From: a virus
IMG/VR virus record: IMGVR_UViG_3300033553_000531
Coordinates: 1-33,284 of that record
Length of the DNA: 33,284 bases
Reading direction: 5' to 3' (one strand)
Made by a program: the position numbers and the translations under genes. The notes under the pieces are model-generated. The model made no database searches. It was not told the DNA's origin and saw only the letters and a program-made list of their open reading frames with translations. Positions 2 to 29,972 of this stretch are shown in pieces (within the stretch, counting starts at the first letter, position 1; every line of letters begins with the position of its first letter).

Positions 2-279
2 GTTGTGAATTGCTTTCAATTTGTATATTTACAGTGGTAACTCACAAGAAGAACCCCTATACCTTAAATACTTTACTCGTTGTGAATTGCTTTCAATTTG
101 TATATTTACAGTGGTAACTCACAAGTAGAGAAAGAAAGTCCTTTTTATTGGTCTCGTTGTGAATTGCTTTCAATTTGTATATTTACAGTGGTAACTCACA
201 AGTGCATCAGGTAAGGCATTAACGTTAAATCAGTTGTGAATTGCTTTCAATTTGTATATTTACAGTGGTAACTCACAAG
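2..279 (+). CRISPR. type II-C CRISPR array, right end (4 repeats, 3 spacers)
   Basis: Four identical 47-bp repeats lie at 2-48, 79-125, 156-202 and 233-279, separated by three 30-nt spacers (49-78, 126-155, 203-232). Base 1 is probably the last base of a further spacer, so the array continues left of the window. Repeats of 47 nt starting GTTGTGAATTGCTTTC are typical of type II-C systems in Bacteroidota. The repeat ends are weakly palindromic (TTGTGA / TCACAA). Each repeat holds TTG, an 18-nt gap and TATATTTA, close to the Bacteroidota promoter consensus (TTG, TAnnTTTG), so each repeat may start a crRNA rightwards as in other II-C arrays. I see no match of the three spacers to the prophage in this window by eye. 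Confidence 0.97.
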
Positions 280-495: not shown

Positions 496-1735
<1,240 letters not shown>

Positions 1736-5500: not shown

Positions 5501-6914
5501 AATAAATAATATGCCACAATTTTAACTCCATTTCGTTAGTTAAAAACTCTTTTACACTTAAGTCTGACACTTTTTTTAGACGTGTTATAAACTGAGCTTT
5601 AGTCTCATTACATGGATATTTGTTATCTTCTACATAATTCCATCTATAATCTGACTTTTCTGTTTTTGATATTATTTTTTGATCTATGAAAAACTTTATC
5701 ATCTGATCTTGGTTAATTTCTTTTCTCACATTCAAGAAATCAAATAACTCAACCCAAGCTTCTTCATCTTTCAACCATTCATTTGTTACTTCCTCCTCTA
5801 CTAAGCCACCATCAGCATCTACCTTTTTATAAAACTTTAAATTCTTTAAAAACTGCCATAACCTAAATTCTTGAAACAAAGGGTGAGATTTAGAAATTGC
5901 TTTTAGAGGTTTAAATGTTAAATCTCCATCTTCGTTTTTTATATAATTACCCTCCTTATCCTTTAAAGGGTGCTTTTCGAACTGGCAACCAGAAATTAAT
6001 GATTTTTTACTTTTTAAAGGTCGTTGATAAAAGATAATATCATCTAAAAACAAATAATCAAAACCTTTCGATTTTATATTATTTTTGTGTGCTTCATTTC
6101 TTCTATATAATTCGTTTAAACATTCTTTATATAAATCATTGTTTTCCAATTCCGAATGAAATTTTAACTGAGTTTTTAATATCTCTCTCAATTCGTTTTT
6201 ATAAAACTTTCTTTCTATCGTCTTTATTAAACTCCCTCTTATTTTTTGATCAGGATTTTGCAATAAAACTTCATAAATATAAGTGCCAACAGTTTTATTA
6301 TTTCCAGACTCCACGTAGTTTTCTATATCTTGTTCTGTTTTAGACTTTATAGCCAACCAATCCTTTGTAGAGTCAACTGACTTGTAAGACCTTTTTATAT
6401 CTCCCGATTTTAATGTTGATTCAGTTACAATAAACTCTCTAGTTTTCCCTTCCCAATCTTCTTTCTTTGCTATAGGCTGAGAATAGGTCCATCCATTTTC
6501 AAAAATAACATCATATAAAACGATGTCTTTTCCTTTTATGGTTTGTTCAGAAACTACCAATTCTTTCACCTTTAGCACCTCAAATGTTTTGGACACTCCT
6601 TCTTTTTTCTCTTCTTCCTCTCCTCTTAACTGATAGTAACCTCTTTTTTGATTAAAATTAAGTAAAACCCACGACAGTTCCTCCTTAGATATTTTTTCTG
6701 TTAGTGCTTTCTTTCTTAAATAATATAGTGTCCAATCGTATGCTATTTTTGTTTCTTCTCCGTTTTCTTTTTCATAAAACAAATCGGGTTGATTAAGCCT
6801 GAAATCCTTTAGCATTTCGTTGTAAGAGTCTATAAATAAGAACTTATAGTTCCCTTCATTTTCTTTTATAATCGCAAAATCGAAATGTGCAAATTTATAA
6901 ATCGAAATGTACAC
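2565..6914 (-). CDS. cas9: CRISPR-associated endonuclease Cas9, 5'-truncated
   Basis: 1449 residues of a large Bacteroidota type II-C Cas9. RuvC-II is present with E674 in IHVELGREMK; the HNH nuclease has H802 in EIEHIIPQ; RuvC-III has H996 and D999 in HRHHALDALVIA. Recognisable family sequence starts at NYKFLFIDSYNEMLKDF; ahead of it should stand roughly 110-130 residues with the RuvC-I aspartate (LGLDLGTNS-type motif) and the arginine-rich bridge helix. These are absent. The open frame instead begins at a GTG at 6914, and the first 15 or so codons do not look like Cas9. With no RuvC-I aspartate and no bridge helix the product cannot be a working dual nuclease. The break coincides with the left edge of the prophage. 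No internal frameshift or stop is seen. Confidence 0.93.
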   Translation of the reverse strand: MYISIYKFAHFDFAIIKENEGNYKFLFIDSYNEMLKDFRLNQPDLFYEKENGEETKIAYDWTLYYLRKKALTEKISKEELSWVLLNFNQKRGYYQLRGEEEEKKEGVSKTFEVLKVKELVVSEQTIKGKDIVLYDVIFENGWTYSQPIAKKEDWEGKTREFIVTESTLKSGDIKRSYKSVDSTKDWLAIKSKTEQDIENYVESGNNKTVGTYIYEVLLQNPDQKIRGSLIKTIERKFYKNELREILKTQLKFHSELENNDLYKECLNELYRRNEAHKNNIKSKGFDYLFLDDIIFYQRPLKSKKSLISGCQFEKHPLKDKEGNYIKNEDGDLTFKPLKAISKSHPLFQEFRLWQFLKNLKFYKKVDADGGLVEEEVTNEWLKDEEAWVELFDFLNVRKEINQDQMIKFFIDQKIISKTEKSDYRWNYVEDNKYPCNETKAQFITRLKKVSDLSVKEFLTNEMELKLWHIIYSVTDKVEYERALDNFALRNDLDNNSFVESFKSFPPFGSDYGAFSEKAIKKMLPLMRRGKYFSDSDVLVSIKTRIEQIMARVNDINLSLKDDDLKNELERLSDSDVPVRLIKSFIPFKDRNPFSGLNTYQVSYATYNRHSEPGVIDKWRTSADIDVFLNTTFKQHSLRNPIVEKIVTETLRTVRDIWKFYGEGKENFFDSIHVELGREMKNSADKRKQMTSRISDNENTNERIKGLLKELKDDGNIEGDINPYSPSQQSILKIFEEGVFQNPAVSFLKVNEDDISKIRKSNAPTSSEIVKYKLWLEQGYISPYTGKIISLSELFTTKYEIEHIIPQSRYFDNSMGNKIICESEVNRLKDNKTGAEFIKKHSGEMVSLGQGKSVQLFSLEAYENHCNQYFKKNRTKLKNLLSEDIPEGFINRQLNDSRYISSVIKSLLSNIVREDDEKEAISKNLIPVTGSITSKLKQDWGLNDKWNELIIPRFKRLNELTRTKDFTYLNEQGVEVPTVPDDIAKGFNKKRIDHRHHALDALVIACCTKKHTHYLSSLNSEKENFGLRDALLIKNKNSDYTKYFLPPWSKFAVEAKDSLDKTIISFKSNNRVINKTNNKTWQWVEEKGKYNKKLVKQTKGENWAIRKALHKETVSGLVFIDEGKIVQISKAVEVSNLIVDKNIRNKVDELVGKTVKEKQAYLKKNPISINGEKIAKVTVFTKATATRKALSEVKNLKVLEKITDGGIQKILINHLKSYVTEKGDSDFENAFNQEGVEELNKNIKELNNGKKHNPIYKVRIYEAGSKFAVGQEGNRKDKYVEAAKGTNLFFAIYEGEDKKRTYETIPLNVVIEHQKQTANIPKEHRTSIPVGNNKGKLLFSLSPNDLVFVPTDEEIDNFNLVDFNDLNKEQVERIYKMVSCTGAELHFVPNTISVEIKKNENGTNAKSERIQNFYNDDCVFDDKDGKPVMIKTRCWKLELDRLGNVLNVIR
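6877..6910 (+). repeat. paired 12-bp direct repeats at the prophage edge
   Basis: AAATCGAAATGT occurs at 6877-6888 and again at 6899-6910, exactly 22 bp apart. Tandem sites with about 22-bp pitch at an element end recall Mu transposase end-binding sites. They fall where similarity to Cas9 stops. The assignment to a phage end is inference. Confidence 0.4.
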
Positions 6915-6933
6915 AAAAATAATTATTTACCAT

Positions 6934-7067
6934 TACCTTTGTACTACGACAATTATAATTCTTTCTAGAACTTCAACGTAATGACATTTACCAAGGTAGG
7001 GTTACCTTTGGGTAGCATTTGTTGGAGTTCTAGAATTATAACAGATTGTCGCAACCTACCTTGGTTA
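6934..7067 (+). ncRNA. strongly folded intergenic region with a promoter-like box
   Basis: TACCTTTG (6934-6941) matches the TAnnTTTG promoter box. Immediately after it starts a long nested inverted repeat: CGACAAT (6947-6953) pairs with ATTGTCG (7045-7051), and the inner arms around 6954-6976 and 7021-7040 (CTAGAACTTCAAC / GTTGGAGTTCTAG) extend it. A second pair, ACCAAGGTAGG (6990-7000) / CCTACCTTGGT (7055-7065), is perfect over 11 bp, competes with the first, and overlaps the stop codon of the methylase gene. It could be a small RNA, a bidirectional terminator or a phage-end structure. No -33 box is visible. Confidence 0.35.
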
Positions 7068-7889
7068 CTTTAGATCAAAGTTCGCTGTCATTACTTCAAT
7101 CTTAGTTTTCTTAGTCTTACCCTTGTTATTGATAGACACGTTCTGTTTTACGCTTGTTTGATGCCATCCATTAGCTCTTGTGTACTCTTTTAGTATATCG
7201 CTAGGATAACTGCTTAAAATGAACTTTCCTTCAATTTTAGATAATGTTTTCAATAACACTTCAAAGTCATCTATTGAATAACCATCATAATGTCCACAAT
7301 CAGAGTTAAAGTATGGTGGGTCGCAATAAAAGAACGAATCTATGTTATCCCTTGAGTTTATTATTCTAATAGCGTCTGTGCACTCTATTTGAACATTCTG
7401 TAAGCGAATAGCTAAATCCTCAGTAAAAGATTCCCTTTTATTATTAATTTTCTTTGATGTAGTTGGTCTCTTCTTATCGTAACCCCAAGATCCATCTAAC
7501 ATAGAAGCAAAGCTTTGAGCTGATAAAACCCAAGGAGCCCAAGCTCTTTCAATTGTTGTAAACATGTGAGGATTGCTATTGATAACTACAGCATCACTAT
7601 GAATAGATCTAGAGTGTAATGATATTCTTATCATTTTCTCTAGATCTACAAAGTTGTTCTGAACTTGCTCATAGAAATTTATTAACTCTCTATTGGTATC
7701 GTTAATTACTTCAACATTACTTCTTTGCTTTGCCCAAAATATAGCACCACCCCCGACAAAAGGTTCAGCATACAAATTATGTTCAGGGAACAATGGTAAT
7801 ATCTTTTTTATTAAATTTTGCTTACCTCCATAGTAGGTAATTGGTGTTTTCAGTTTGTTTGCGACAACTGATAATTCTTGTTTTTCCAT
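7065..7889 (-). CDS. phage DNA adenine methylase (Dam/D12 class)
   Basis: 274 residues with the motifs of D12-class N6-adenine methyltransferases. The N-terminal TPITYYGGK stretch and FVGGG (residues 44-48) form the AdoMet-binding part, and DPPY (190-193) is the catalytic motif. Members of this family usually methylate GATC, but the target here cannot be read from sequence. It is the last gene of the leftward late block, beside the prophage edge. That is the place occupied in phage Mu by the mom modification gene, so protection of phage DNA from host restriction is a reasonable role. The frame is intact, with an ATG start 41 bp after the preceding gene's stop. Confidence 0.92.
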   Translation of the reverse strand: MEKQELSVVANKLKTPITYYGGKQNLIKKILPLFPEHNLYAEPFVGGGAIFWAKQRSNVEVINDTNRELINFYEQVQNNFVDLEKMIRISLHSRSIHSDAVVINSNPHMFTTIERAWAPWVLSAQSFASMLDGSWGYDKKRPTTSKKINNKRESFTEDLAIRLQNVQIECTDAIRIINSRDNIDSFFYCDPPYFNSDCGHYDGYSIDDFEVLLKTLSKIEGKFILSSYPSDILKEYTRANGWHQTSVKQNVSINNKGKTKKTKIEVMTANFDLK

Positions 7890-7929: not shown

Positions 7930-8697
7930 TTAAAGGTAATCGAATATTATTTTAACAGCATTTGCCTCTAGAAAATCCCTTGATGCGCTGCTTGACACAC
8001 TACTAGAACTATCTGTAATAGTTATATTTGTAGAATCAAAAGAATAACTAAAATTTTCAAACAAATATGCCCCTATAAAAGGAACTAATAAAGAACTAGA
8101 AAGATCCCAAATCATAACCGACATACCTTGGGTATTAAATTCAGTTAGAGGCAAATTATGAGGGATTATACTCTCCCATCTGTTTAGAGATGAATTCCAT
8201 GAAAAAGCAGGAGGCGTTGCATTAATATAACTTCTCTTTATTTGATCAACCAAACCAAACTCTGTTTTTAAGGTTTCTTTTAATTGCTTAATGTTCTTTA
8301 ATCTAACATCTTCCCCCATAGCTGGTAAATAGGGTTCTAATTTGAATTGCCTGATTTCATGAGGCTTAAAGCTTGCTCCAGCTTGTGTTATCTTAACAAC
8401 CGAGTTATCAACATAGTTATCTGCAATTATTCCATAGCTATTACTTAAAACGTCTAAATCTAATCCGCCAGTTTCAGGAAGATAACCGATCTCTCCATTG
8501 ACTACCACCCAGCCAGCATTTAAAACGTCATCTCCATTAATATCAGTTCCTCCATAGTCACAACCAGTAAGTATTGCAAAACTTGAAAGAGCTTGAATTA
8601 TCTGATGTATTCCAGTTCTATAAATATCGTCTAAAAATCTAAAATCATCTAATTCAACTGGATAGCCTCCGTTAACATTTGTGTCTAAATTATTCAT
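7930..8697 (-). CDS. putative phage tail fibre / baseplate-distal protein
   Basis: 255 residues, no family I can name with certainty. It follows the baseplate genes and precedes the methylase, the usual place of tail-fibre genes in Mu-like phages. The N-terminal part (about 1-110) is rich in Gly, Asp and Asn with short beta-type segments such as DYGGTDINGDDVLNAGWVVV, which resembles fibre N-termini that attach to the baseplate. The C-terminus is Ser-rich (TITDSSSSVSSSASRDF). No chaperone or fibre-assembly gene follows. Function is by position only. Confidence 0.5.
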   Translation of the reverse strand: MNNLDTNVNGGYPVELDDFRFLDDIYRTGIHQIIQALSSFAILTGCDYGGTDINGDDVLNAGWVVVNGEIGYLPETGGLDLDVLSNSYGIIADNYVDNSVVKITQAGASFKPHEIRQFKLEPYLPAMGEDVRLKNIKQLKETLKTEFGLVDQIKRSYINATPPAFSWNSSLNRWESIIPHNLPLTEFNTQGMSVMIWDLSSSLLVPFIGAYLFENFSYSFDSTNITITDSSSSVSSSASRDFLEANAVKIIFDYL

Positions 8698-8707
8698 TTG
8701 TTTATTT

Positions 8708-9181
8708 TTAAAAAGTTTCTATTGTGTATTTCTTGCCTGCTATTTTATAATAATCAATTTGAGTTCTTAACACCGATTCATTAAATGTAACTCCAATGGG
8801 AATTTTTATTATAAAATCAATATTATCAACCGCCTCGCTATTATTATATATGTAAACAGGAACATTTTCAGCAGCATTATACACCATTAACGTAGGTAGT
8901 AATTCAGCTTGATTATATATGTAGCTGTAATCTATGTTAGCAGTATCTTCTATATAAATTCTCCTTAGAGTATTATCATATAAATCATTTAAGTAGTGTT
9001 CTAAATAAATAACCTGCCCATTAAATATTAACTTGTAATTAGTAGTTGCCTTGTATTGATCAAACAATATATTCACAGCCTTTAATGGATGAAGAATCAA
9101 ATATAGAAACGCTAATATTTTATTCTTTTTTTTAGAAAGAGGCACTAATTTATCTGTAGAAGAATTAAAGTCTATTGACAT
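8708..9181 (-). CDS. phage tail protein of unknown function (gp48 position)
   Basis: 157 residues. Its ATG overlaps the stop of the baseplate J-like gene (TAATG), so the two are translationally coupled. Residues about 20-40 (KKNKILAFLYLILHPLKAV) form a hydrophobic helix, followed by alpha/beta sequence ending KKYTIETF. In Mu the gene after gp47 is gp48, a baseplate wedge protein of similar size, and this is the likely counterpart. I do not see sequence motifs that prove it. Confidence 0.5.
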   Translation of the reverse strand: MSIDFNSSTDKLVPLSKKKNKILAFLYLILHPLKAVNILFDQYKATTNYKLIFNGQVIYLEHYLNDLYDNTLRRIYIEDTANIDYSYIYNQAELLPTLMVYNAAENVPVYIYNNSEAVDNIDFIIKIPIGVTFNESVLRTQIDYYKIAGKKYTIETF

Positions 9182-10044
9182 TATTGATAAGTTATAGTTG
9201 TTGAAATAGGATTAGCAATCGAAGTCTTTAAATGACCAGCATTAGGCTTATAGTAGTTGTTTAAAACTGTTTGGTAGGGCAATACTCCATAACGTGCTGA
9301 AGCTTTATTAAATAGAGGATCAATAACTCCTTCAATTTTTTGTATATCATCAGTTAATTTTGTAAAATTCAAAACTCCATCAAAAGGTAGGTTTTGAATG
9401 TAAGCATTGACAACATCAACAATTGGATAAGTACCTGGAGAAATTAAAGATTCTCCTGATGTTGATATAACTTGCTGATTTACTGTTATAGTGTAGTAAA
9501 TAGCTATTTCGTCAGCTATAGAACTAATAATAGCGATGTTTGTGCCTGCAAATTTTATCTTATTTATGTAATTATTAAATGCTGTTAGTTCTGTGCCTGT
9601 TAATGGTTCAGGGATTCCTCCTCCATCTAATTTAGCTACTTTTATTCTTAATTGTGATCCCACTTCAGATACTGAAGCTCTTTCGACGATTTGAATTGAC
9701 TGATTAAGTGTAGCGTATTGATATTTATCATCAATAAAGTTCAATGAATCTCCGTATTGAAACAATAATGATTGTTTCCAATACCACCTAGTATTGCCTG
9801 TAACAGCATCTTTTACCTTTTCATCCACTTCTAATTTATATGCATCAAAAATTTGCTCGTGAACCCAAATAGCAACAGAGATAAGATATATATATAACCT
9901 CCACAAAGCTACTTTACTTGTGCTTGTAAGATCGGCTAATAGAGTTTGTCCAGAATCTATTGCAGGTTGTAATTCATTCAACTCTGACATTGTTTGCTTC
10001 TCTGTTATTATTGAGTCGTATATTGCTATTATTGTTCTTGACAT
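9181..10044 (-). CDS. baseplate J-like protein (Mu gp47 type)
   Basis: 287 residues. The C-terminal half (about 155-270) has the baseplate-J pattern: TAFNNYINKIKFAGTNIAII, a two-strand segment IAIYYTITVN, then IVDVVNAYIQNLPFDGVLNFTKLTDDIQKIEGV, as in gp47/gpJ proteins that form the wedge arms of contractile-tail baseplates. It is shorter than Mu gp47 (about 360 residues). Position after the gp45/gp46-like genes and before the gp48-like gene supports the call. It shares a TAATG stop/start overlap with the next gene. Confidence 0.8.
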   Translation of the reverse strand: MSRTIIAIYDSIITEKQTMSELNELQPAIDSGQTLLADLTSTSKVALWRLYIYLISVAIWVHEQIFDAYKLEVDEKVKDAVTGNTRWYWKQSLLFQYGDSLNFIDDKYQYATLNQSIQIVERASVSEVGSQLRIKVAKLDGGGIPEPLTGTELTAFNNYINKIKFAGTNIAIISSIADEIAIYYTITVNQQVISTSGESLISPGTYPIVDVVNAYIQNLPFDGVLNFTKLTDDIQKIEGVIDPLFNKASARYGVLPYQTVLNNYYKPNAGHLKTSIANPISTTITYQ

Positions 10045-10056
10045 TTTATTGTTTAA

Positions 10057-10227
10057 TTAGACTGGTTTTATAAATTTATTTACCCATTCAGTATATTCTA
10101 ACGGTTCTGTATCAAACCAATTCCATCCACCTACCTCTGTTTTATTGTCAGCATTTAACTGTTGTCCATTTGGTAAGTTAATTATTGAGCCAACTAACCA
10201 ATTATTATTTTCTTTTTTATAAAACAT
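10057..10227 (-). CDS. small phage protein, unknown
   Basis: About 56 residues from the ATG at 10227. The frame is open to a TTG at 10254, which would overlap the upstream gene by 19 bp; the ATG, 9 bp past the upstream stop, is preferred. The sequence is aromatic and Asn-rich (KKENNNWLVGSI, GGWNWFDTEP) and resembles small proteins found among tail genes in Bacteroidota phages. No function is assigned. Confidence 0.55.
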   Translation of the reverse strand: MFYKKENNNWLVGSIINLPNGQQLNADNKTEVGGWNWFDTEPLEYTEWVNKFIKPV

Positions 10228-10235
10228 ATCAATTT

Positions 10236-11663
10236 TTAATAAGCTGTTATCCAATTTTTGGAAGAAGCCAAAGCATTAACACTTGTGTAACTTGTTACTT
10301 CTTGCATTAAGATAGATTGAGAAGTCCCTCCTGTTAAATCAGCAAGACTATTAACAAAATCTAACAATGCTAGCTCACTCATACTAATACAAAATCTTAT
10401 ATCAACATTAACACTTAATTCATTGCATATTAGTCTTCGAGCATTTTTACAATTATAAAAAGCTGTATTAGCATTAGTTACACCACTACAATCACTTATT
10501 TCATATCCCCAGTCAAAAGTTCTATTTTGGGCAAAATTTTGAATATTTACCAAAGCATTAGTTGTATTAACCTTTACTATTTGTTGTGGTCTATAAGTTG
10601 AATTATAAAACATATACCCCAAATATATTATACTAGGTAGATTAAATTCATTTATAGGAGAAAACGCTCTCCTAAACAATTGATTGACTGTAGTTACTAG
10701 ACTTGTGTCTGGAAAATTTGTAATATACTCCAAGCTAAACATTGCTTGAAACATTTTAGTCATGTTTTTAATAGTACTTATATCGTTAAATTGTACGTGT
10801 TTTATATTGGCAAAAGACATTGCCCTAATATCTCCAAAATCAGGAGTTGACCAAGGGACGAAAGAATTATCATGATGTGGCATATTAACCACCATTTCAA
10901 CAAAATTGGTAGTTCGATAATTTGTATTTCCAGCTTCTGAATTATGAAAATTAATTGTCGTTAAATGTTCTCCTGATTGTGGTCTTATCTTAACCCAACA
11001 CCATTTAACTCCATTTTTATATACTCCATAATCATTTGAATTTACTATATAACTTCTATATGTAGCTGATGGTAAATTTGCATCTATTAGAGTGTCGTCT
11101 ATCCATATTTCGCAATTTCCTATAGCTGTAACAGAAAAAAAGTTGTCAATATCATAATCTCCTTCTAACCTTAATAAAAAACTAACCTCTTCCTCTTCAG
11201 GTGTTGGTTGATCTGGCCAAGAAGCTGGGCGACTCCATTCAACTATTGGATTTGGTGTAGCTATTATATTCTCCATAGATGGAACACTAGTTGTTGTACC
11301 ATCACTATCAGTAAAATTAATATTTGGCAATTCTAAATATCCACCAACAGGAACAGTTGTATAATAGCTATTTGTTGTGTTATGAACAACTACAACTGAT
11401 GAATTACTAGACTCTGAATTAGTTGCAAAAGAATAACTTCCTGAAAAGGATTTAATGTTTAGTGAATTATAATAATCAACTACTTTTTTGTTTAAAGGAG
11501 CTCTTTGTGGAATTAAAATAATATCTCCAGCAACTAATGAACTATTAATATTCAAAGTTGGATTTACTTCTAAAATAAAAAAAACACCCTCAATACTTCC
11601 ATATTCTTGAAGAGATAGATCAAATAAACTTTGGTTTGCTTCTATGTATATATTCTTATTCAT
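10236..11663 (-). CDS. LysM-like tail protein fused to BspA/DUF285-like repeats
   Basis: 475 residues. Residues 1-55 look like a LysM or tail-protein-X domain: QSLFDLSLQEYGSIEGVFFI ending in AGDIILIPQR. A long middle section is beta-rich and Asn/Ser-rich. From about residue 285 to the end there are leucine-rich segments of the BspA/DUF285 surface-protein type (KNMTKMFQAMFSLEYITNF, TTVNQLFRRAFSPI, YLGYMFYNST, ANTAFYNCKNARRL). It starts inside the end of the gp25-like gene (8-bp overlap). Baseplate-linked LysM domains often bridge tail parts, while BspA repeats bind surfaces, so a receptor- or cell-wall-binding tail accessory is plausible. The combination is unusual. Confidence 0.6.
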   Translation of the reverse strand: MNKNIYIEANQSLFDLSLQEYGSIEGVFFILEVNPTLNINSSLVAGDIILIPQRAPLNKKVVDYYNSLNIKSFSGSYSFATNSESSNSSVVVVHNTTNSYYTTVPVGGYLELPNINFTDSDGTTTSVPSMENIIATPNPIVEWSRPASWPDQPTPEEEEVSFLLRLEGDYDIDNFFSVTAIGNCEIWIDDTLIDANLPSATYRSYIVNSNDYGVYKNGVKWCWVKIRPQSGEHLTTINFHNSEAGNTNYRTTNFVEMVVNMPHHDNSFVPWSTPDFGDIRAMSFANIKHVQFNDISTIKNMTKMFQAMFSLEYITNFPDTSLVTTVNQLFRRAFSPINEFNLPSIIYLGYMFYNSTYRPQQIVKVNTTNALVNIQNFAQNRTFDWGYEISDCSGVTNANTAFYNCKNARRLICNELSVNVDIRFCISMSELALLDFVNSLADLTGGTSQSILMQEVTSYTSVNALASSKNWITAY

Positions 11664-11955
11664 CTTTATCCGCTTTTACATTTACAACACCATCTTCTTT
11701 GACGTTTATAAAAATATTTTTAAAACCATCACTTTCTAACTGTAGCTTTATTTCCTTTTCTAATGAAACACGCACTTTAGAAGATAGAGGAGCATTTAAA
11801 AAATTAGATATTCCAACACCTATCATAGGGAATTGTTTAAACTCTCCTTTTTGCGCCAAAAGAATACTCTCTATGTGCCCAAGATTATTATTATCAACTT
11901 TAAAATCTCCTGTTGAAAAATCTAAATCACCATTTTGATCTAACATAAAATCCAT
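11656..11955 (-). CDS. gp25-like baseplate wedge protein (Mu gp46 type)
   Basis: 99 residues of the GPW/gp25 family. The diagnostic pattern is DLDFSTGDFKV early, then IESILLAQKGEFKQFPMIGVGISNFLNAPL, then a KVRVSLEKEIKLQLESDGF helix and a final strand. This protein belongs to the baseplate wedge next to the sheath initiator in T4 gp25 and Mu gp46. It lies 1 bp after the spike gene and overlaps the LysM/BspA gene by 8 bp, the compact spacing of this block. Confidence 0.88.
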   Translation of the reverse strand: MDFMLDQNGDLDFSTGDFKVDNNNLGHIESILLAQKGEFKQFPMIGVGISNFLNAPLSSKVRVSLEKEIKLQLESDGFKNIFINVKEDGVVNVKADKDE

Positions 11956-11956
11956 A

Positions 11957-12547
11957 CTAATGTTTTATTTTAGGGTTTTCTATATTTGAAAAATTACCAA
12001 CCTGTTTTCCTGCTAATGCAGCTTTAAGAGCAACTTGCAATGAAGATGGTGTTGTTACTGCAGAAGTCGGAATTGGCGAGCCATTTATTATAGATAAAAT
12101 TGACGTTAATATTTTATTATTTTTGTTAAGTTCTTTTACTAATTCAGGCTGTTTAACAAGCCCTTTATTTTCCCCTCCATTAAATATTACTTCTTTAGCT
12201 TCAATATCTAATTTACCTTCGCTGTTTAAATAGAGTTTAAACTTTGTTTTATTGGTGATTAAAATACTTTCAAATTCTGTTATTTGAATAATAAAAGTAT
12301 CTGCTTTATTATTTTCTATTATTCCAAAATGAACAACAGAACCAATTGCTGGGTAAACAACCAACTTTGTATCTGTTTGCTTTATAACTGCTTTTAGACG
12401 AACATCTAAATAATCAGCTCCACCTCTTAATGGCTCAACATCGCAAGTGTCCTGGTCTTTGTTTACAGAAACAACTTTCCCTCTAATAACAGTAGTAGGA
12501 ATCATTGGTTTTACCAATCGTTGTATTGCTTTAGCTACTTCGCTCAT
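11957..12547 (-). CDS. baseplate spike protein (Mu gp45 / gpV-like)
   Basis: 196 residues. The N-terminal OB-like part (about 15-90) reads VIRGKVVSVNKDQDTCDVEP then AIGSVVHFGI, as in gpV/gp45 spike proteins. A beta-helical stretch follows (KTKFKLYLNSEGKLDIEAKE), then a flexible tail. Such proteins form the trimeric membrane-piercing needle tip under the hub. Its start overlaps the hub gene's stop (ATGA-type), and order hub-spike-gp25 is that of Mu gp44-45-46. Confidence 0.82.
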   Translation of the reverse strand: MSEVAKAIQRLVKPMIPTTVIRGKVVSVNKDQDTCDVEPLRGGADYLDVRLKAVIKQTDTKLVVYPAIGSVVHFGIIENNKADTFIIQITEFESILITNKTKFKLYLNSEGKLDIEAKEVIFNGGENKGLVKQPELVKELNKNNKILTSILSIINGSPIPTSAVTTPSSLQVALKAALAGKQVGNFSNIENPKIKH

Positions 12548-13503
12548 CTCTTGGCTAATTTTCCTAATTCTAAAACTCTTCTATACCCTATGCCAACACC
12601 AACTCTTGTCGTGACACTATCAATATCATAACTAGCGTTATGCTCAGGATATAGTTCGTCTTCCAATTCAGCAACATCTCCATGCTGAGCAAATGGATCT
12701 CCATAAGCTTCAAAAGTTCCTGATAATCCAGTTGACTTTAAATCATCAAAAGATTGTGCTGCTTCATACTTTAACTCTTCTTTTGTAAGGTTAAAGAACG
12801 TTAGTGTTCTAATCGCTCCTTCGTCATCTCCTAATTCAATTGTTTCTCTTGTATTGTCAGGAGAAATACTAGTGGCTTTTAGTTTTATTTTATGATCATC
12901 TTTATTATGATATTTTAAATTGTTTTTACCCTCTACAGTATTTCTTTGAAAGTGATATTTAACCGTATTATATTCTGTTAAAGGAGTGGCAAATCCAACG
13001 TGTAAAACATCATTTCGAAAGTAGGACTTAATTCCTATTCCTTGTAATTCGTTTAAAACAGTTGAGGCATTTACATCTGAAATTCTAAACGCACCAATGC
13101 TTCTATCGTTAACTTTATTTTCATAATCAGGAGCTATAAAACTCACTAATTCCTGTAAACTAACTTTTCTCCAGCTTTTATTTATTTTAGAAGTTTGTTT
13201 TAACTGCCACATACTATCTTCACATTCAATAATTAATGGAATACCTGTAGTAAATGAACTTACAAAACCTGTAAATTCAACATTCAGCTGATCATTATAA
13301 CCAGCCATTATCAATACTTTATCACCTCTTTTAATAATGTCTTGAATTGGTTTTTTAACCTGGTCTTTTTCAATCATTATTTTTTTTGGAAGCGATATTT
13401 TAGCAGTATCCGTCAATGTTTTCCAAGAAGACTTAATTTCAATTTGAGAGCAGAAATCAAAAGATAAACTCCCTATTTCGATATAGACACTGACCTTTTT
13501 CAT
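12544..13503 (-). CDS. tail hub protein (Mu gp44 / gpD-like)
   Basis: 319 residues, with the layout of gp27/gp44-like hub proteins: an N-terminal beta domain (SSWKTLTDTAKISLPK, RGDKVLIMAGYNDQLNVEFTGFVSS), a central LysM-like helix pair (SLQELVSFIAPDYENKV), and a C-terminal part ending with TTRVGVGIGYRRVLELG, where the last strand docks on the spike. Overlaps both neighbours by a few bases (ATGA with the upstream gene), typical of tightly coupled translation. Length agrees with Mu gp44. Confidence 0.8.
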   Translation of the reverse strand: MKKVSVYIEIGSLSFDFCSQIEIKSSWKTLTDTAKISLPKKIMIEKDQVKKPIQDIIKRGDKVLIMAGYNDQLNVEFTGFVSSFTTGIPLIIECEDSMWQLKQTSKINKSWRKVSLQELVSFIAPDYENKVNDRSIGAFRISDVNASTVLNELQGIGIKSYFRNDVLHVGFATPLTEYNTVKYHFQRNTVEGKNNLKYHNKDDHKIKLKATSISPDNTRETIELGDDEGAIRTLTFFNLTKEELKYEAAQSFDDLKSTGLSGTFEAYGDPFAQHGDVAELEDELYPEHNASYDIDSVTTRVGVGIGYRRVLELGKLAKR

Positions 13504-14072
13504 AATGATAATTCAATAGGCTCGTCGGAAAAACAGCTAATAACATAAGGTTGAACATTAGTCATAGGACTAGGTCGATACTGAATATTACTAACAACTA
13601 TATTATGAACGCCTAATAGATTTAATAAACGACTCTCTACCTCTAATTCTTGATCTATAACAATAACATTATTTAATTCTGCTATTTTATTATAAGGCAA
13701 ATCTTCACCATCATGATTAACCAGCAAACCTTTTATTTGTATAATATAATCCCCATCATTAATATACTCTTTTACGGTGCCTTTGCGTTTCTGAACATGT
13801 GATAGGACTATGTTTTTGCTCATATTAATAGTCATTAAAGGAGCATCTTCAAAGTCTAATACTTGCGTTGAGTTTGGGATCTTTATACTTAAAGTCTCAA
13901 AAATTGCCGTTCCAAATATAGAAGTCGCTGATTGCTCAGCGACTTCTATTGTTTCTAATCCTCCAGCAAACTTTAATTCAGGATTAACAGTACCTTCTGT
14001 TTTGGCAACAAAACCTTTGATGCCGAACACTTCCTGTGTTAATTGTGATACGTTAATGTTAAAGTCAGCCAT
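13500..14072 (-). CDS. tail protein, DUF6046-like
   Basis: About 190 residues from the ATG at 14072. The frame is open to 14123, but those codons overlap the frameshifted chaperone tail, and the ATG at 14072 overlaps that tail's stop as TAATG, so it is the better start. The sequence has the DUF6046 pattern of Bacteroidota contractile-tail phages: FGTAIFETLSI, DAPLMTINMSKNIVLSHV, RKGTVKEYINDGDYIIQIKG, then LNNLGVH-type end strands. It occupies the slot of Mu gp43 between tape-measure chaperone and hub, though here no tape measure lies between them. It probably belongs to the tail-tip or baseplate. Confidence 0.7.
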   Translation of the reverse strand: MADFNINVSQLTQEVFGIKGFVAKTEGTVNPELKFAGGLETIEVAEQSATSIFGTAIFETLSIKIPNSTQVLDFEDAPLMTINMSKNIVLSHVQKRKGTVKEYINDGDYIIQIKGLLVNHDGEDLPYNKIAELNNVIVIDQELEVESRLLNLLGVHNIVVSNIQYRPSPMTNVQPYVISCFSDEPIELSL

Positions 14073-14613
14073 TAGATTCTCTCTTGTTGTTTCTGTTTGT
14101 GTAACCATTTTGCCTGCGCCCACTTTCTTTTAAATATGGCACCTGATAGCTCTTCAGGGAATGGTATGTGCAAGTAATAGCTTATAAGAGCTGATGCATG
14201 TTCGATGCCCGTCTCGCTTTCTTTATCAGAGAGACGAACATCGTTTAATGCTTTTTTACCTCTCCAGCTAAGATTTCAATCGAATGAAAAGCTTGAATTC
14301 CTCCAGATAAACGAACTTTAGTATTCGTTTTAAACTCTTGATCACCATCAATCCAAAGATTATCTATGATGTAGTTATTTCTTTCCAAAGGAGTGTCATT
14401 CATGGTAGAGATTGCAGACAGAACAGAAATGTTTTCATAAGGATCCTTCAAGAAACATCTTACTTTGTTTTTCTTTTCTTTATCTAAAAATACACTTACT
14501 TCAATTACCTCTCCATGCGCTTTTCTCCAAGCTTCTATTTGAGTTTTAGTAGCTGGAAACCCAGCTGAAACTAATCCAGCTTTATCTTCTTTATGTTCTT
14601 CTTTTTTAGCCAT
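14072..14613 (-). CDS. tail assembly chaperone, long form made by -1 frameshift
   Basis: The upstream reading frame (122 residues, stop at 14245) continues in the -1 frame for 59 codons to a TAA at 14074-14072. The continuation reads as real protein: ALNDVRLSDKES, ALISYYLHIPFPEE, FKRKWAQAKWLHKQ. The switch point is the heptamer A AAA AAG at 14257-14251 in the correct phase, followed by a potential stem-loop. Tail phages commonly make such a G/GT pair of chaperones that coat the tape measure protein; in Mu these are gp41 and gp42. The long form would be about 180 residues. Confidence 0.75.
14240..14260 (-). promoter_or_regulatory. -1 ribosomal frameshift site (A AAA AAG)
   Basis: On the minus strand GGT is followed by AAAAAAG (14257-14251), in phase as A AAA AAG, the same heptamer used in E. 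coli dnaX. Nine nucleotides further on a hairpin is possible: ATGTT plus CGTCTC on one side, GAGACG and, after a bulge, AACAT on the other. The zero frame stops 3 nt after the heptamer, so slippage is the only way to reach the 59-codon extension. Confidence 0.75.
14245..14613 (-). CDS. tail assembly chaperone, short form (gp41-like)
   Basis: 122 residues ending GEVKKH at the TAA at 14245. Lys-rich N-terminus (MAKKEEHKEDK), then GFPATKTQIEAWRKAHGEVIEVSV and a helical middle with NDTPLERNNYIIDNLWIDGD, the pattern of small tail chaperones such as Mu gp41. It follows the tail tube gene after 4 bp. It is the zero-frame product of the frameshift pair; normally most ribosomes stop here. Confidence 0.8.
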   Translation of the reverse strand: MAKKEEHKEDKAGLVSAGFPATKTQIEAWRKAHGEVIEVSVFLDKEKKNKVRCFLKDPYENISVLSAISTMNDTPLERNNYIIDNLWIDGDQEFKTNTKVRLSGGIQAFHSIEILAGEVKKH

Positions 14614-14617
14614 TTTC

Positions 14618-15046
14618 TTAACCTTTATAATTAATATCTCCGATTGCTAATTCAATTTGTTTTTCAACATCTGTAGTGTCTGTATTCACGTCTACACCTC
14701 TGTTTTTAAATTCACAATACAATAATTTATGAACTGTATGAACTCCGTTATTATTCCAAGCTACCATAATAGGAAAAGGCTTAATATCCATTAAATCTTT
14801 TCCTGCTGGTAGAGCTTTTTCAATTGCTTGAATTAACGACTCTTTTAATGTTACAGATCCTGAGTATGATTTCTTACCCCTACCTCTAGAGATAGGCTTA
14901 ACACCCGCTCCATAGTTCTCTGTTTTTTCTTGAGCTGACTCATAGTTAATGGCTGAAACTCCTATCCAATCTCTATTTAGAGCGTGAATAGTTATTTGCC
15001 CATAAGAGTATGATTCACCATTGATCATTGATGTGTTATTTGCCAT
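14618..15046 (-). CDS. tail tube protein (Mu gpM-like)
   Basis: 142 residues beginning MANNTSMINGESYSYGQITI, with the compact beta-sandwich pattern of contractile-tail tube proteins (SGSVTLKESLIQAIEKAL, FPIMVAWNNNGVHTVHKLL, VEKQIELAIGDINYKG). It stacks in hexameric rings inside the sheath. The gene directly follows the sheath gene (8-bp gap) and precedes the chaperone, the invariant order sheath-tube-chaperone. Confidence 0.82.
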   Translation of the reverse strand: MANNTSMINGESYSYGQITIHALNRDWIGVSAINYESAQEKTENYGAGVKPISRGRGKKSYSGSVTLKESLIQAIEKALPAGKDLMDIKPFPIMVAWNNNGVHTVHKLLYCEFKNRGVDVNTDTTDVEKQIELAIGDINYKG

Positions 15047-15054
15047 TTTACTAT

Positions 15055-16269
15055 TTATATTTGTTTGGCTAAGCCAAGTTGAATTTCAATTTCTCTTCCT
15101 GTTGCAATAGAAACTATTTTAATTATTACAACTACTTTTCCAGTGTTTAATACGTCTTGATCTGTATCAACATAAGCACTCAATCCTGAAACTTCACTTT
15201 GTTGTAACATTATCGACAAACCATCTTCAGCATCTTGCTCAAAAGATTTAGCAACTCCAATATCCATTTGACCAGATGTAGCATCTAATTTTATTGGAGA
15301 GTTAATTCTGTCGAATAAAGCATCGTATGTTAATCGAATAGCTTTCTGAATGACTCTTTGTTCTTGTCCCCATGCATAATCGCTTGTTAGAACTTGACAA
15401 GTAGGAAAAGCATCAAAGTATGTTCCTGTTTGACCCACATAATTATGAGCGAAAATATAACCTTTGTCAGTCAATGCTTGAAAGTTAGCTTCTAAACTAG
15501 AAGCCTTAACTCCTGAACTTAAATAAGGATCCAAATACAACCCATTTTCACGATCAGATAAATCAAACTTACCAGTCCAACCAATACTTTCATTAACCAA
15601 AGCTGAACTTATAATTCCTAACGTTGCTCCGACTGCTGCATAACCTGCATGAATAGCATGTGTATCTGCAATTACTTTATCTGCAAGAATGGTAACATGT
15701 ACATTTTCAGCATCAAGTGTTCTAAGATCAGTTGCAGTTGCTACAGTCCCATTAAAGCTTCTACCCTCAAGCAATATCTGTAATGGACGTTTATAACTTA
15801 ACTCTGATTCTGCTAACGCTTGAGCTTTTGGAATTGCAGCTATAACATCAGAATCTAAACCTCCAGCTAATGTTTCTGTGTAAGTTGTTAATGGATTTAA
15901 TACAACACTTGCTTGTCTAATGTCTCCACCAACATCTAGTGTTAATGTTTTTAAATGTGGTTTAGTAACATCACACATATCTGTCATTGAAGTGCCTTGA
16001 GCTGTTAATCTTATATAAAGCTCGCCATTTTTATTTTTACGAAAGAACTCTTGAATATGATGATAAACCAATACATTGTTAGTAGTATCGTAAGTAGAAT
16101 CTATTCCTAGATTCTCGGCATCTTCTTTTCTTGATAACTTTGGAGATGTTGTATCTAAAGCTAAACCAGAAGCAGATACTCCTCCAAACATAATGGCACT
16201 AACCATATCTTTTGAAGTAGCTCTTCTTCCTAAGCCGTTTTGCCCTTTAACTATTATGATATTTCCCAT
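15055..16269 (-). CDS. contractile tail sheath protein (DUF2586-like)
   Basis: 404 residues. Pattern of DUF2586 sheath proteins: a short N-terminal lead, then SAIMFGGVSASGLAL, a segment with YHHIQEFFRKNKNGELYIRL, and a C-terminal domain with YAWGQEQRVIQKAIRLTYDALF and SGLSAYVDTDQDVLNTGKVVV. It forms the contractile outer sheath. It is the first of the tail module in this block, following a small acidic protein gene after 2 bp. Confidence 0.85.
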   Translation of the reverse strand: MGNIIIVKGQNGLGRRATSKDMVSAIMFGGVSASGLALDTTSPKLSRKEDAENLGIDSTYDTTNNVLVYHHIQEFFRKNKNGELYIRLTAQGTSMTDMCDVTKPHLKTLTLDVGGDIRQASVVLNPLTTYTETLAGGLDSDVIAAIPKAQALAESELSYKRPLQILLEGRSFNGTVATATDLRTLDAENVHVTILADKVIADTHAIHAGYAAVGATLGIISSALVNESIGWTGKFDLSDRENGLYLDPYLSSGVKASSLEANFQALTDKGYIFAHNYVGQTGTYFDAFPTCQVLTSDYAWGQEQRVIQKAIRLTYDALFDRINSPIKLDATSGQMDIGVAKSFEQDAEDGLSIMLQQSEVSGLSAYVDTDQDVLNTGKVVVIIKIVSIATGREIEIQLGLAKQI

Positions 16270-16271
16270 GA

Positions 16272-16586
16272 TTAATCTTCTTTTTTAGATTCAATGAAAT
16301 CAATTAAAACCTGTTTTTTTGGTCTTGATTTACCATCATAACCTAAATCAACAGCAGATTTTATTAACTCTTCATAAGTTAAACTTTCATCTGAATCTTC
16401 ATCTTTAGAGTCTTCTAAGACAGAACGATCAAACTCTTCAACCTCTTCAGCTTTTAATTTATTAGTAACCGAATAATTAACAGCTGCATTTTTAGAGACA
16501 AAGACCTTCTTATCTTCAGAGATAAAAACATTATTCATTCCTTTGTTGAATTTTAGAGCTTCAACCGCTGCATCTTTTTTTGACAT
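16272..16586 (-). CDS. small acidic phage protein with SAP/HeH-like C-terminus
   Basis: 104 residues. The C-terminal 40 residues (LTYEELIKSAVDLGYDGKSRPKKQVLIDFIESKK) look like a helix-extended-helix nucleic-acid-binding motif, preceded by an acidic linker (DSKDEDSDES). The N-terminus is a small beta segment (NVFISEDKKVFVSKNAA). It lies 2 bp before the sheath gene, between lysis and tail modules. Small proteins like this are common next to capsid genes of Mu-like phages, and it may be a head or connector accessory. Function unknown. Confidence 0.6.
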   Translation of the reverse strand: MSKKDAAVEALKFNKGMNNVFISEDKKVFVSKNAAVNYSVTNKLKAEEVEEFDRSVLEDSKDEDSDESLTYEELIKSAVDLGYDGKSRPKKQVLIDFIESKKED

Positions 16587-16598
16587 AATTTTATTTAT

Positions 16599-17069
16599 TT
16601 AAATGACTTTAAAATATGTATTAAACACTTTTTTAATAATTAACAGAACAATTGCAATTAGTACCAACCAAAGACTGGCTTTATACCACCAAGGCACATG
16701 TTTTGTTGTTTTTTCAATCACTTCTTTAGTGTGTGATTGTTTTGATAGTTCTTTAAGTTCTGTTTGTGTTGACAGAACTAACTTTTCTAAACTATCACAC
16801 TTTGTTGTTACATTCAGAACACCCTTGTTACTTTCTATTCTAGAAGAAGCTCTACCTGATCTACAGATAATAACTGTATCTCTAGAAAAAAAAGATTTTG
16901 GATAAGATTGAGAAAAGCCTTCAGAAGGAATTCTTACAGTATCAATAGTCGTTCGCTCTATATAAACAATACTATCACTTGACGATATTGTTTCTTTTGT
17001 TTCCACTTGTTTTCTCGCCTTGCAAGAAAAGAGCATTGCCAACATTGATATGTAAATTATATACTTCAT
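16599..17069 (-). CDS. u-spanin-like lipoprotein with C-terminal membrane segment
   Basis: 156 residues. N-terminal lipoprotein signal: MKYIIYISMLAMLFSCKARK, lipobox LFSC with the acylated Cys at residue 16. The C-terminus has one membrane helix, WYKASLWLVLIAIVLLIIKK (about 129-148), and a short basic tail. The periplasmic stretch between them contains a Ser/Thr-rich beta part and a helix (CDSLEKLVLSTQTELKEL). An outer-membrane lipid anchor joined to an inner-membrane helix in one small protein is the architecture of unimolecular spanins such as T1 gp11, which fuse the two membranes at lysis. Adjacent amidase and single-TM genes support this. Confidence 0.7.
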   Translation of the reverse strand: MKYIIYISMLAMLFSCKARKQVETKETISSSDSIVYIERTTIDTVRIPSEGFSQSYPKSFFSRDTVIICRSGRASSRIESNKGVLNVTTKCDSLEKLVLSTQTELKELSKQSHTKEVIEKTTKHVPWWYKASLWLVLIAIVLLIIKKVFNTYFKVI

Positions 17070-17338
17070 TTACTGTTAATTAACTTTTTTTCTAGATCGC
17101 TAATCCTATTTCTTAAATCTAAAATCTCATCACGCATTCCTTTTTCCTGATTTCGCTTTTCTTCGATTTCTTTTTTCAAATCCTCAGCGATTGATCTCCA
17201 TATAGCAACAGCTTTATCAAGATTCTCTATTTCATTAGAGTCGGCATCTACTTTGTATTTTCTTCGAGCAAAAATATACGTTGAAAACGCTGATGCAAAT
17301 CCAATTATAACCTCAGGCAAGTAGTCTCCGTAGCTCAT
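17066..17338 (-). CDS. single-TM coiled-coil protein of the lysis module (holin-like position)
   Basis: 90 residues. A membrane segment near the start (PEVIIGFASAFSTYIFA, about 8-24) is followed by RRK and then a long coiled coil (about 35-88, with IENLDKAVAIWRSI and LRNRISDLEKKL). It lies between the amidase and the spanin-like lipoprotein and shares an ATGA overlap with the latter. A holin or a holin-associated regulator fits the position, but one TM with a large coiled coil is also seen in other phage membrane proteins. Confidence 0.55.
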   Translation of the reverse strand: MSYGDYLPEVIIGFASAFSTYIFARRKYKVDADSNEIENLDKAVAIWRSIAEDLKKEIEEKRNQEKGMRDEILDLRNRISDLEKKLINSK

Positions 17339-17352
17339 GTTTAAACCCTAGT

Positions 17353-18069
17353 TTAGACTATGTTTTTTAAAATTACTTTCTCTACTGTATTACAAATGGC
17401 TAATGCTATACGTTGTCTAATTTTTGGATCCAATAACATTTTACACTCTTTATAATTGGTATGAAACATTGTCTCCACCAATATAGCGGGGCAAATGGTA
17501 TCATTTATAATGGTGTACTTTGCTTCTTTATCAATGTCATTATCATCAAAGTCAGTCCGCTGTTTAATTTCAGGAAATAGACTCTTAAATTCTTCCATCC
17601 AAATAGTGGCTATTGTATCTGATTTTGTTTTACCAGGGGAGGTAAAGACTTCTGTGCCGTTAGCTGACTCTTTTCTAAAGCCGTTACTATGAACAGATAT
17701 TAAAATAGCCTTCTTATTTTTGTTTAAATAGTGCTTATTGGCTGTATTAACTCTTTTATATAAAGCAACATCTTTATAATTTTCAGGTTCAACAGTAAAA
17801 ACAGTATCAATACCTTTATTTAACAATAAAATTGACGCATGTTTAACAATGTCTCGATTCCCAACTCCTTCGTAATAGATAGTATCATCTTCCCAAAGTG
17901 GAGAACGATTACCATTCGTTACATAAGTATTTGTAATAGGATTAACTCCTCCATGTCCAGCATCTAAAATAACCGATATACTTTTACTGTCTGTTTTCAT
18001 TAATTCTGTTTTTGCATGTCCTACAGATACAAATAGTACCATTGACATAATTAAGATTAGATTTTTCAT
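17353..18069 (-). CDS. N-acetylmuramoyl-L-alanine amidase (phage endolysin)
   Basis: 238 residues of the Amidase_3 family. A signal peptide spans 1-19 (MKNLILIMSMVLFVSVGHA). Zinc ligands are H39 in LDAGHGG, E67 in YYEGVGNRD and H127 in SVHSNGF; the catalytic glutamate is E199 in ILVETMF. It cuts the amide bond between MurNAc and L-Ala in peptidoglycan. In the prophage it is the endolysin; the signal peptide means it is exported by the host Sec system and does not depend on a large holin hole. It stands between the capsid gene and the small lysis proteins. Confidence 0.9.
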   Translation of the reverse strand: MKNLILIMSMVLFVSVGHAKTELMKTDSKSISVILDAGHGGVNPITNTYVTNGNRSPLWEDDTIYYEGVGNRDIVKHASILLLNKGIDTVFTVEPENYKDVALYKRVNTANKHYLNKNKKAILISVHSNGFRKESANGTEVFTSPGKTKSDTIATIWMEEFKSLFPEIKQRTDFDDNDIDKEAKYTIINDTICPAILVETMFHTNYKECKMLLDPKIRQRIALAICNTVEKVILKNIV

Positions 18070-18157
18070 TTTCTTGTTTTTCTTTTTGGTTTAACAATTA
18101 CTTTTTAACCAAGGGATTAAAACTGAATTTTAATCCCTTGATATATTCTTTACTATT

Positions 18158-19015
18158 CTATTGGCTAATGATTGCTCCAATTGCTTCTGCTTTCTTAGGC
18201 ATTACAATATCATACAATCTGTAACCCATAACACTATCACGTGTTGTTGGTCTATCTTCAGCCTTACCATAGTACATCTTCACCTGACCTTGAGCGGTAA
18301 ACATTCTAGGAGCAAAAAACGCCACTGAAGATTCTTTATCCCCTACTACTGGTGCTGCACCCCAAGCTTGTTTAGTTCCTGCATTAAAAACAGGTGTATC
18401 AACAAATTCAAAGATGTCAAATCCTAATAAACGTCCTATCTTACCTTCTTTATTATCTAAAGAGTATTGCTTTTCAAATGTTTCATTTGTTTCCATCAAC
18501 TCCTCAACGTGCTTAGGACACAAAACTAACCTTCTTCCTTTTTGTGGGATTTTAGCATCATCAAACTTACGTTTCATCTTACGAATATCAGCTATTGTTA
18601 ACTTAGCAGCAGCTGTTGAAAAAACAGGAGTTTTAGCAGCATCAGAAGTTGGTGCAATAGAATGAATAGCCATTTTAGAAGTTCCTTCTTCCAATGTAGA
18701 AACATGTTGTTCATTAACACTTCTGATCTTTTCATAAGACAAAGACTTAATTTCATCATCAGTTACAGATGTATTAGTTGTTTCTACTTTATTTAATGAA
18801 ATTGCAACATCACCATCTGTCCTTGTAGAGGTTGCAATTGGATAAACTGTATTGTTAATTAATATATCAGGATCTGCTCCTACATCTACAAGGTGAATCG
18901 TATTGTTTTCTGCTACTTTTCCTGAATAATTAGGTAACCCAGTTAAAAATGTAGCATCTTGTCTAAAAGCTTTTAATAATTCTCCTGTCCAAATTTCTGT
19001 TAATAAACCTGCCAT
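18158..19015 (-). CDS. major capsid protein
   Basis: 285 residues directly after the protease-scaffold gene. N-terminus MAGLLTEIWTGELLKAFRQD, then the HK97-type layout: an E-loop-like beta region with HLVDVGADPDILINN, a long spine helix around IADIRKMKRKFDDAKIP, then GRRLVLCPKHVEELM and a C-terminal strand region GYRLYDIVMPKKA. It is shorter than Mu gpT but in the same gene position. Most abundant virion protein expected. Confidence 0.85.
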   Translation of the reverse strand: MAGLLTEIWTGELLKAFRQDATFLTGLPNYSGKVAENNTIHLVDVGADPDILINNTVYPIATSTRTDGDVAISLNKVETTNTSVTDDEIKSLSYEKIRSVNEQHVSTLEEGTSKMAIHSIAPTSDAAKTPVFSTAAAKLTIADIRKMKRKFDDAKIPQKGRRLVLCPKHVEELMETNETFEKQYSLDNKEGKIGRLLGFDIFEFVDTPVFNAGTKQAWGAAPVVGDKESSVAFFAPRMFTAQGQVKMYYGKAEDRPTTRDSVMGYRLYDIVMPKKAEAIGAIISQ

Positions 19016-19023
19016 TGTACTTT

Positions 19024-19491
19024 CTATTTTTTATGATTATATTCCGCTTCAACCAACTTTTGGTAATTAGCAGGTGATTTTTCTTTCATCTCATTTAAAG
19101 CTTCTCCGTCGTTCTTTAAATAATCTGTGATTGTCCATTTAGAACGATCTACTTGTTGACCATCTTCTGAACCTCGATTAATTAAATCCATAGGTTTAAC
19201 AATTGGACTAATAGCATTTAAAGCTACTTTAGCTGAATCAAAATCTTTTGTTGCTAAATTCGCCCAGTTTTCTTTTTGATCTACAGCTATTCTTTTATCA
19301 TCAACCGCATCATTTACTAGATCTTCAACTCTAGACTTTTCAATTGCAGCTAACTTATTCGCTAATGCTGTTTTCTCCTTATCTTCTTCAGGAGGTGTGC
19401 CTTTACCTTTCAATGCTTTAATTGCATTGTTAACATCTTCCTGAGAAGCGTTTTTAGGTAAACCAAGTTCTTTTAAAAGTTCTTCGTTCAT
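19024..19491 (-). CDS. nested scaffold protein (internal start in the protease gene)
   Basis: An in-frame ATG at 19491 (residue 216 of the protease) starts at MNEELLKELGLPKNASQEDV, exactly where the scaffold domain begins after the linker. A 155-residue scaffold-only product would parallel Mu, where scaffold gpZ is made from an internal start in protease gene I. Inferred from position; no strong ribosome-binding signal is expected in this phylum. Confidence 0.45.
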   Translation of the reverse strand: MNEELLKELGLPKNASQEDVNNAIKALKGKGTPPEEDKEKTALANKLAAIEKSRVEDLVNDAVDDKRIAVDQKENWANLATKDFDSAKVALNAISPIVKPMDLINRGSEDGQQVDRSKWTITDYLKNDGEALNEMKEKSPANYQKLVEAEYNHKK

Positions 19492-20136: not shown

Positions 20137-20303
20137 TTACACTTACTTTTTTTGTGTTTTGACAATGCAAATATTAGCTTAAAAAAAGAATTTAAAAAGC
20201 GTTTAAATAATTACAAAACAAGTAGTTACATCTAATTATATTAATAAAGCAGTTAACTATTTAACAATTATATAATGTGTTATATAGAAGTGATATTTGT
20301 ATC
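20137..20303. promoter_or_regulatory. divergent control region of the two late blocks
   Basis: 167 bp between the divergent protease and terminase genes. GATATTTG at 20293-20300 is one base from TAnnTTTG and only 3 bp from the terminase start, so a near-leaderless message is possible. On the minus strand TAATATTTG lies upstream of the protease, one base too long in the spacer. The region is very AT-rich. It must hold the start signals for both late operons. Confidence 0.4.
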
Positions 20304-22227: not shown

Positions 22228-22242
22228 CAATAAAATAAAATT

Positions 22243-22650: not shown

Positions 22651-22684
22651 AACACTATTTACAGAACATTTAAACAGCATTAAA

Positions 22685-23953: not shown

Positions 23954-23998
23954 ATAACGCCTATCGTTTTGAAGCGTTGAATAACGTAATTGATAGGC
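23944..23998 (+). promoter_or_regulatory. -1 ribosomal frameshift site at the portal/MuF junction
   Basis: The heptamer G GGA AAG (23944-23950) is in phase directly before the portal TAA. Eight bases later a perfect 7-bp stem can form: GCCTATC (23959-23965) with GATAGGC (23992-23998), and the loop holds a smaller CGTT/AACG stem. Slipping -1 gives GTA AAT AAC GCC and enters the MuF frame, which is open from there and has no ATG at its start. Confidence 0.6.
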
Positions 23999-25272: not shown

Positions 25273-25379
25273 AAGAAAAAAAATAGGTTAAAAAGTAGTT
25301 AGGGATTGGTTGTTTACTCCGTACCGTTCGATTACTAATTAACCTATTCAATACAAATATAGTAAAAAAACAAAATATA
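25273..25379 (+). other. intergenic region with long inverted repeat
   Basis: AATAGGTTAA (25282-25291) pairs with TTAACCTATT (25339-25348) across a 47-nt loop. It is the only gap over 40 bp within the rightward block. It might end MuF transcripts or mark a module junction. No T-run follows the stem. Confidence 0.4.
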
Positions 25380-29951: not shown

Positions 29952-29972
29952 AGAGGCGTCATTTTTGTTATT

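Follow-up and report, generated by a model that had tools for sequence, protein, structure and literature searches.

The locus described here raises the question of how a cas9 gene comes to lack its beginning at the very point where the DNA of a Mu-like phage ends. The DNA studied, referred to below as the window, is a whole IMG/VR record of metagenome type with a length of 33,284 bases, and consists of a CRISPR-cas locus (1-6867), the right-hand portion of a Mu-like phage (from 6868 to about 28768, as judged by homology), an IS30 element (28851-29956) and a set of cassettes (29957-33284); the individual features are listed in Table 1. We consider it probable that cas9, in the type II-C locus of a Flavobacteriales bacterium, was hit by a Mu-like phage through an ordinary low-specificity transposition that happened to disable the gene.

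Table 1. Features of the window, with strand and the basis of each assignment; L002 and L032 are the nearest relatives of the CRISPR-Cas locus and of the phage, respectively
Feature	Position	Strand	Basis or remarks
CRISPR array	2..279	+	Truncated by contig end; four identical repeats (47 nt), three spacers (30 nt)
cas2	496..837	-	PF09827, TIGR01573; 92% identity to L002
cas1, type II subtype	845..1735	-	TIGR03639, 318 bits; 84% identity to L002
cas9 without first 118 codons	2565..6867	-	Profile matches and alignment to L002
Predicted 5-bp target site AAAAG	6863..6867	-	5-bp duplications in G180 and G419; one copy visible in window
Phage right terminus	6868..6915	-	Two ~20-nt repeats, GTACATTTCGATTT / GCACATTTCGATTTTGCGATTAT, then ...CGATTAT
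DNA adenine methylase, phage right end	7065..7889	-	PF02086, phrog_56
Tail, baseplate and other structural genes	7930..20136	-	Profile matches
Tail sheath	15055-16269	-	Within 7930..20136 block
Endolysin	17353-18069	-	Within 7930..20136 block
Capsid	18158-19015	-	Within 7930..20136 block
Clp/Mu-I protease	19024-20136	-	Within 7930..20136 block
Terminase, head-tail adaptor, Mu portal, Mu F, tape measure, virion morphogenesis	20277..28349	+	Gene order as in L032
Last recognisable phage gene	28346..28768	-	phrog_17154; homologue of L032 16375-16806
IS30-family element	28851..29956	-	NF033563, 292 bits; boundaries from G044 copies; flanks ATA / CGT
Integron-type cassette array	29957..33284	-	219-aa ORF and Fic protein

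The locus fits type II-C, with cas9-cas1-cas2 and an array and without an additional cas gene. Its nearest relative is a Flavobacteriia type II-C locus of the uncultured Flavobacteriales RB_MAG_00007 (CAMZKF010000114.1, here L002), which has the same cas9-cas1-cas2 order, Cas9, Cas1 and Cas2 proteins identical to those of the window at 78.5%, 84% and 92% of positions, and the same REP palindromes past cas9. The window differs from L002 in that cas9 lacks codons 1-118, that no tracrRNA-like sequence is present, and that a gene for a REP-associated tyrosine transposase (1800-2375; the NCBIfam match is weak and below the cut-off) lies between cas9 and cas1. Four REP palindromes accompany this gene (448-481, 1757-1790, 2397-2430 and 2524-2557); L002 has REP palindromes in the corresponding place without the transposase gene. 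The tracrRNA-like sequence of L002 lies upstream of cas9; no tracrRNA was found in the window, where an Rfam scan also gave no matches. The interval 281-380, which has a short complement to the repeat, was considered as a tracrRNA and dropped, the L002 counterpart being upstream of cas9.

The initial annotation held that Cas9 similarity begins abruptly, with loss of RuvC-I and the bridge helix, and comparison with L002 bears this out and fixes the break at 6867/6868. By blastn, window 2517-6867 aligns with L002 6771-2468 and the similarity stops at 6867; at the protein level it begins at residue 119 of the intact, 1534-residue L002 Cas9 and continues at 78.5% identity over 1415 positions. The minus-strand ORF that encodes the remnant (2565-6914) extends beyond the cas9 DNA, which is confined to 2565-6867, and its match to the type II Cas9 model begins only at position 61. 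The absent residues 1-118 comprise RuvC-I (D10) and the arginine-rich bridge helix. When 84,980 species genomes were scanned, 30 Cas9 relatives emerged, in 26 of which the contig reaches far enough upstream to judge; all 26 have 115-173 extra in-frame codons ahead of the match, holding the RuvC-I motif and the bridge helix in a recognizable N-terminal block (...LGLDLGTNSIGW...(R-rich bridge helix)...LRR(E/D/Q)R(L/I)HR(V/I)L). A short cas9 without a prophage, which had been named beforehand as an observation that would speak against interruption, was seen in none of the relatives. In two of the 26, L005 and L020, the N-terminus is intact and the Cas9 ORF stops early further downstream, at lengths of 738 and 1121 residues; these are possibly decayed or frameshifted genes.

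The remainder of the window Cas9 retains RuvC-II E674, HNH H802 and RuvC-III H996 and D999, exactly as first numbered, and matches PF18541, PF13395 and TIGR01865. It had been argued from this preservation that the loss is recent. There are no premature stops, and comparison with L002 gives dN 0.135, dS 1.52 and dN/dS of about 0.09; at a dS of about 1.5, this ratio is without power to date the break, so the preserved remainder does not show the loss to be recent. The gene is a remnant of cas9 and not a working Cas9: with RuvC-I and the bridge helix cut off, that chromosome should no longer be capable of Cas9 interference, as judged from the known roles of these two elements. A naturally split Cas9 was also considered, and no feature supports one.

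The non-cas9 N-terminal codons of the Cas9 ORF are supplied by the right terminus of the phage (6868-6915). An assembly join error had been suspected at 6870-6915; this interval proves to be the terminal repeat region of the phage, with the break just below it. In related phages the DNA adenine methylase (DAM) gene is followed by two repeats of about 20 nt, the motif (C/G)GATTAT and then unrelated DNA (L034, L036, L040, L042, L045, L052 and L055), and three prophages that a portal-protein search located in genome assemblies (G444, G180 and G419) have the same layout where they end on the right. Of these three, only G180 and G419 also yielded a left end, with the termini TATGGGGC and TATAGGGGC and with 5-bp target duplications of AGGTA and ATTTG, respectively; in G180 an ORF reads across the empty insertion site. 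The corresponding target predicted in the window is AAAAG, and we infer a second copy beyond the other end of the phage. Host similarity ends at 6867 (from L002) and the phage terminus falls at 6868 (from related phages); these two positions were estimated independently and coincide to the base, and this is the strongest evidence for a genuine transposition junction as opposed to a random join; the phage end that is joined to host DNA carries the conserved terminal elements, two repeats and CGATTAT. This is a real, well-located insertion of a known kind. The coincidence of a phage terminus with the end of cas9 homology also provides a clear way to recognize such insertions; a search of viral contigs for the exact phage-end pattern returned none.

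That the adjoining DNA belongs to a Mu-like phage, as first proposed, is confirmed by its Mu-type structural genes (portal, F, I protease and tail sheath; PF06074 at 222 bits, PF04233, PF10123 and phrog_907) and by a right end placed exactly at the cas9 break. Bacteroidota Mu-like myophages such as Winogradskyella phage Peternella (Winoviridae) and Flavobacterium phages FPSV-S1 and lotta8-1 likewise have a Mu portal, Mu F, a Mu I-type protease, a sheath and a terminase; the window phage differs from them in that its sheath is only 28-31% identical to theirs and its early half is missing. The phage had no megablast match among 50,697 phage records, and 397 genomes from a different Flavobacteriales family, the one that includes Winogradskyella, yielded only relatives of about 23-32% identity when searched with the portal. 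The nearest viral relative is the IMG/VR contig L032 (portal 63%, terminase 69% identity), and relatives of the DNA adenine methylase (58-77%) occur in 80 viral contigs, mostly at contig ends. In L032 the structural genes are followed by the homologue of window 28346-28768, a helicase-loader-like gene, early genes, a MuB-like ATPase (288 aa), a transposase (678 aa) and the left terminus, about 10 kb in all; the transposase and MuB-type ATPase are at the expected place in L032/L119 (phrog_310 and phrog_296). Our contig has none of this left part of the phage: the left end, the early genes, the MuA-type transposase and the MuB-type ATPase are all absent. The window phage is therefore the right part of a Mu-like myophage and not a complete phage. 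Two of its proteins deserve mention: a 475-residue product with DUF285 repeats in the tail-gene region (10236-11663), possibly a receptor-binding protein, and a Mu F-like protein with a C-terminal PBECR2 nuclease-like domain (23977-25272).

Insertion by transposition has been described for Winoviridae (PMC10367356) and for Bacteroidota phages (PMC10367356; PMC12135933), and Mu-like phages show little sequence preference and cause loss-of-function mutations (PMC11406979). In the history that we propose, a Mu-like phage would have transposed with low specificity into cas9 at about codon 118, so that its right end came to abut codon 119 and what follows; the beginning of cas9, together with its promoter and with the tracrRNA gene, would then have been placed across the phage, on its far side, and the truncated ORF without RuvC-I and the bridge helix would leave Cas9 interference dead. 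The contig itself stops short of the phage left end and runs through an IS30 element into unrelated integron cassettes, by IS30-IS30 recombination or misassembly. By our own estimate a random insertion would hit cas9 in about 0.15% of cases (4.6 kb in about 3 Mb), so that one such hit should turn up when many phages of this type are scanned; for a gene of about 4.6 kb, an isolated hit is expected as an occasional product of low-specificity transposition, and it is on this basis that we infer the hit to be random. Packaged virion DNA alone does not explain the host part of the contig, since the hankyphage packages about 2 kb of host DNA at its right end (PMC12135933), less than the 6.9 kb present here.

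The initial annotation further stated that the 5' part of cas9 is not elsewhere in the window, which is correct, and took it to be lost, which does not follow, since the contig does not extend to the left side of the phage, where that part should lie. The start of cas9 and the tracrRNA may lie beyond the missing phage end or may have been deleted, and a contig with one phage end cannot tell these apart; searches of viral contigs for the other side of the insertion, with the Cas9 remainder and a Cas9 N-terminus as queries, confirmed none. A deletion adjacent to a resident phage and caused by its transposition, in which the 5' part of cas9, the tracrRNA and the upstream genes are truly gone, would leave a junction that looks identical from this side, and the Mu-like phage DMS3 makes such deletions in and around the cas genes of Pseudomonas aeruginosa lysogens, including deletions that start in cas genes, and with phage sequence at every boundary (PMC11406979). 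Adjacent deletion could also yield unequal flanks, which were found in all four metagenomic relatives with both ends readable, where the phage flanks have no 5-mer in common (G002, G007, G009 and G012; L115-L120, L045, L055 and L075); these could equally come from multiple copies or assembly. We regard such a deletion as unlikely, as it needs an extra step and its other boundary is not seen in the contig. Contigs of this phage type often carry flanks foreign to one simple insertion, and a single junction from such a contig speaks for an insertion in at least some cells, not for the state of the population.

Simple, untargeted insertion has also to be weighed against the proposal that selection favoured the event, the host CRISPR having targeted the phage so that a lysogen survived only with Cas9 off. 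Self-targeting of a Mu-like prophage does select cas and array mutations in P. aeruginosa (PMC11406979), and the DMS3 system resembles ours in that ends of a Mu-like phage lie within or beside cas genes and immunity is removed; it differs in being experimental evolution with known self-targeting and mostly deletions, whereas the window holds a single junction of natural origin, in the cas9 of a type II system, and shows no sign of self-targeting. When the three visible spacers were compared with the phage and the retrieved relatives, all matches stayed at chance level (best 19-20 of 30), and random hits are in any case expected at the frequency given above, which makes selection distinctly improbable. 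The suggestion that the phage gains by inserting in the effector gene, made when the locus was first annotated, is thus without support. This single case indicates that immunity can be lost by phage insertion; that such loss is favoured by selection is not thereby shown.

The other arm of the contig (28851-33284) is, by way of correction, not phage DNA but an IS30 element and an integron-type cassette array. The IS30 begins about 80 bases past the last gene common to the window phage and L032, and is nearly identical to a multi-copy element of G044, a genome in the same family as L002. Fifteen sites in G044 carry an end of this element, and at almost all of them the contig stops about 140 bases inside it, which marks a break in the assembly. 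The left flanks of four of seven G044 copies match a right flank (P of about 0.009 under an A/T-rich random model), indicating a 3-bp target duplication; the flanks in the window (ATA and CGT) do not match, so its two sides are probably not from one insertion. The cassette region is not the natural neighbour of the phage, the second join having arisen by IS30-IS30 recombination or misassembly.

These features make the far arm itself suspect, and together with the many flanks that transposable phages have in a metagenome they lend some weight to the idea that the cas9/phage junction, too, is an assembly chimera of a phage end and a cas locus from different molecules. The join is exact for both partners, however, with the terminal base of the phage directly adjoining the last cas9-homologous base, and a chimera at precisely the phage terminus would be an odd coincidence unless a real phage-cas9 molecule existed; we judge this very improbable. 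A phage that makes a habit of switching off type II CRISPR in its hosts by cas9 insertion or deletion, selected by self-targeting spacers beyond the visible array, is to us scarcely credible. The flanks of more than 80 related viral loci contained no cas genes.

The insertion is best seen as an instance from nature, resolved to the base, in which a transposable phage landed in cas9, and a search of open-licence papers found no report of a Mu-like prophage in this gene. A parallel exists in Vibrio cholerae TM 11079-80, where a mobile element also interrupts a cas effector gene; there it is a simple transposase and not a phage, in the cas3 of a type I-F variant (PMC6360697).

The cassettes encode a Fic/DOC protein and a 219-residue ORF without a family match. 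Hairpins resembling attC sites lie near 29970-30175, 30600-30795, 31432-31625 and 33170-33270, with folding energies, predicted with RNA parameters, of about -41 to -70 kcal/mol for the three long ones and -21 to -25 kcal/mol for the short one. Repeats of this region recur in five genomes of the L002 family (G042, G043, G015, G046 and G044), some paired about 900 bases apart, and since they are common to these genomes the cassettes probably come from the same kind of host. Directly upstream of the Fic gene, at 32901-32988, is a 12-bp tandem repeat (TATTCCGGTGGT/TATTCCGGTAGT) in about seven copies.
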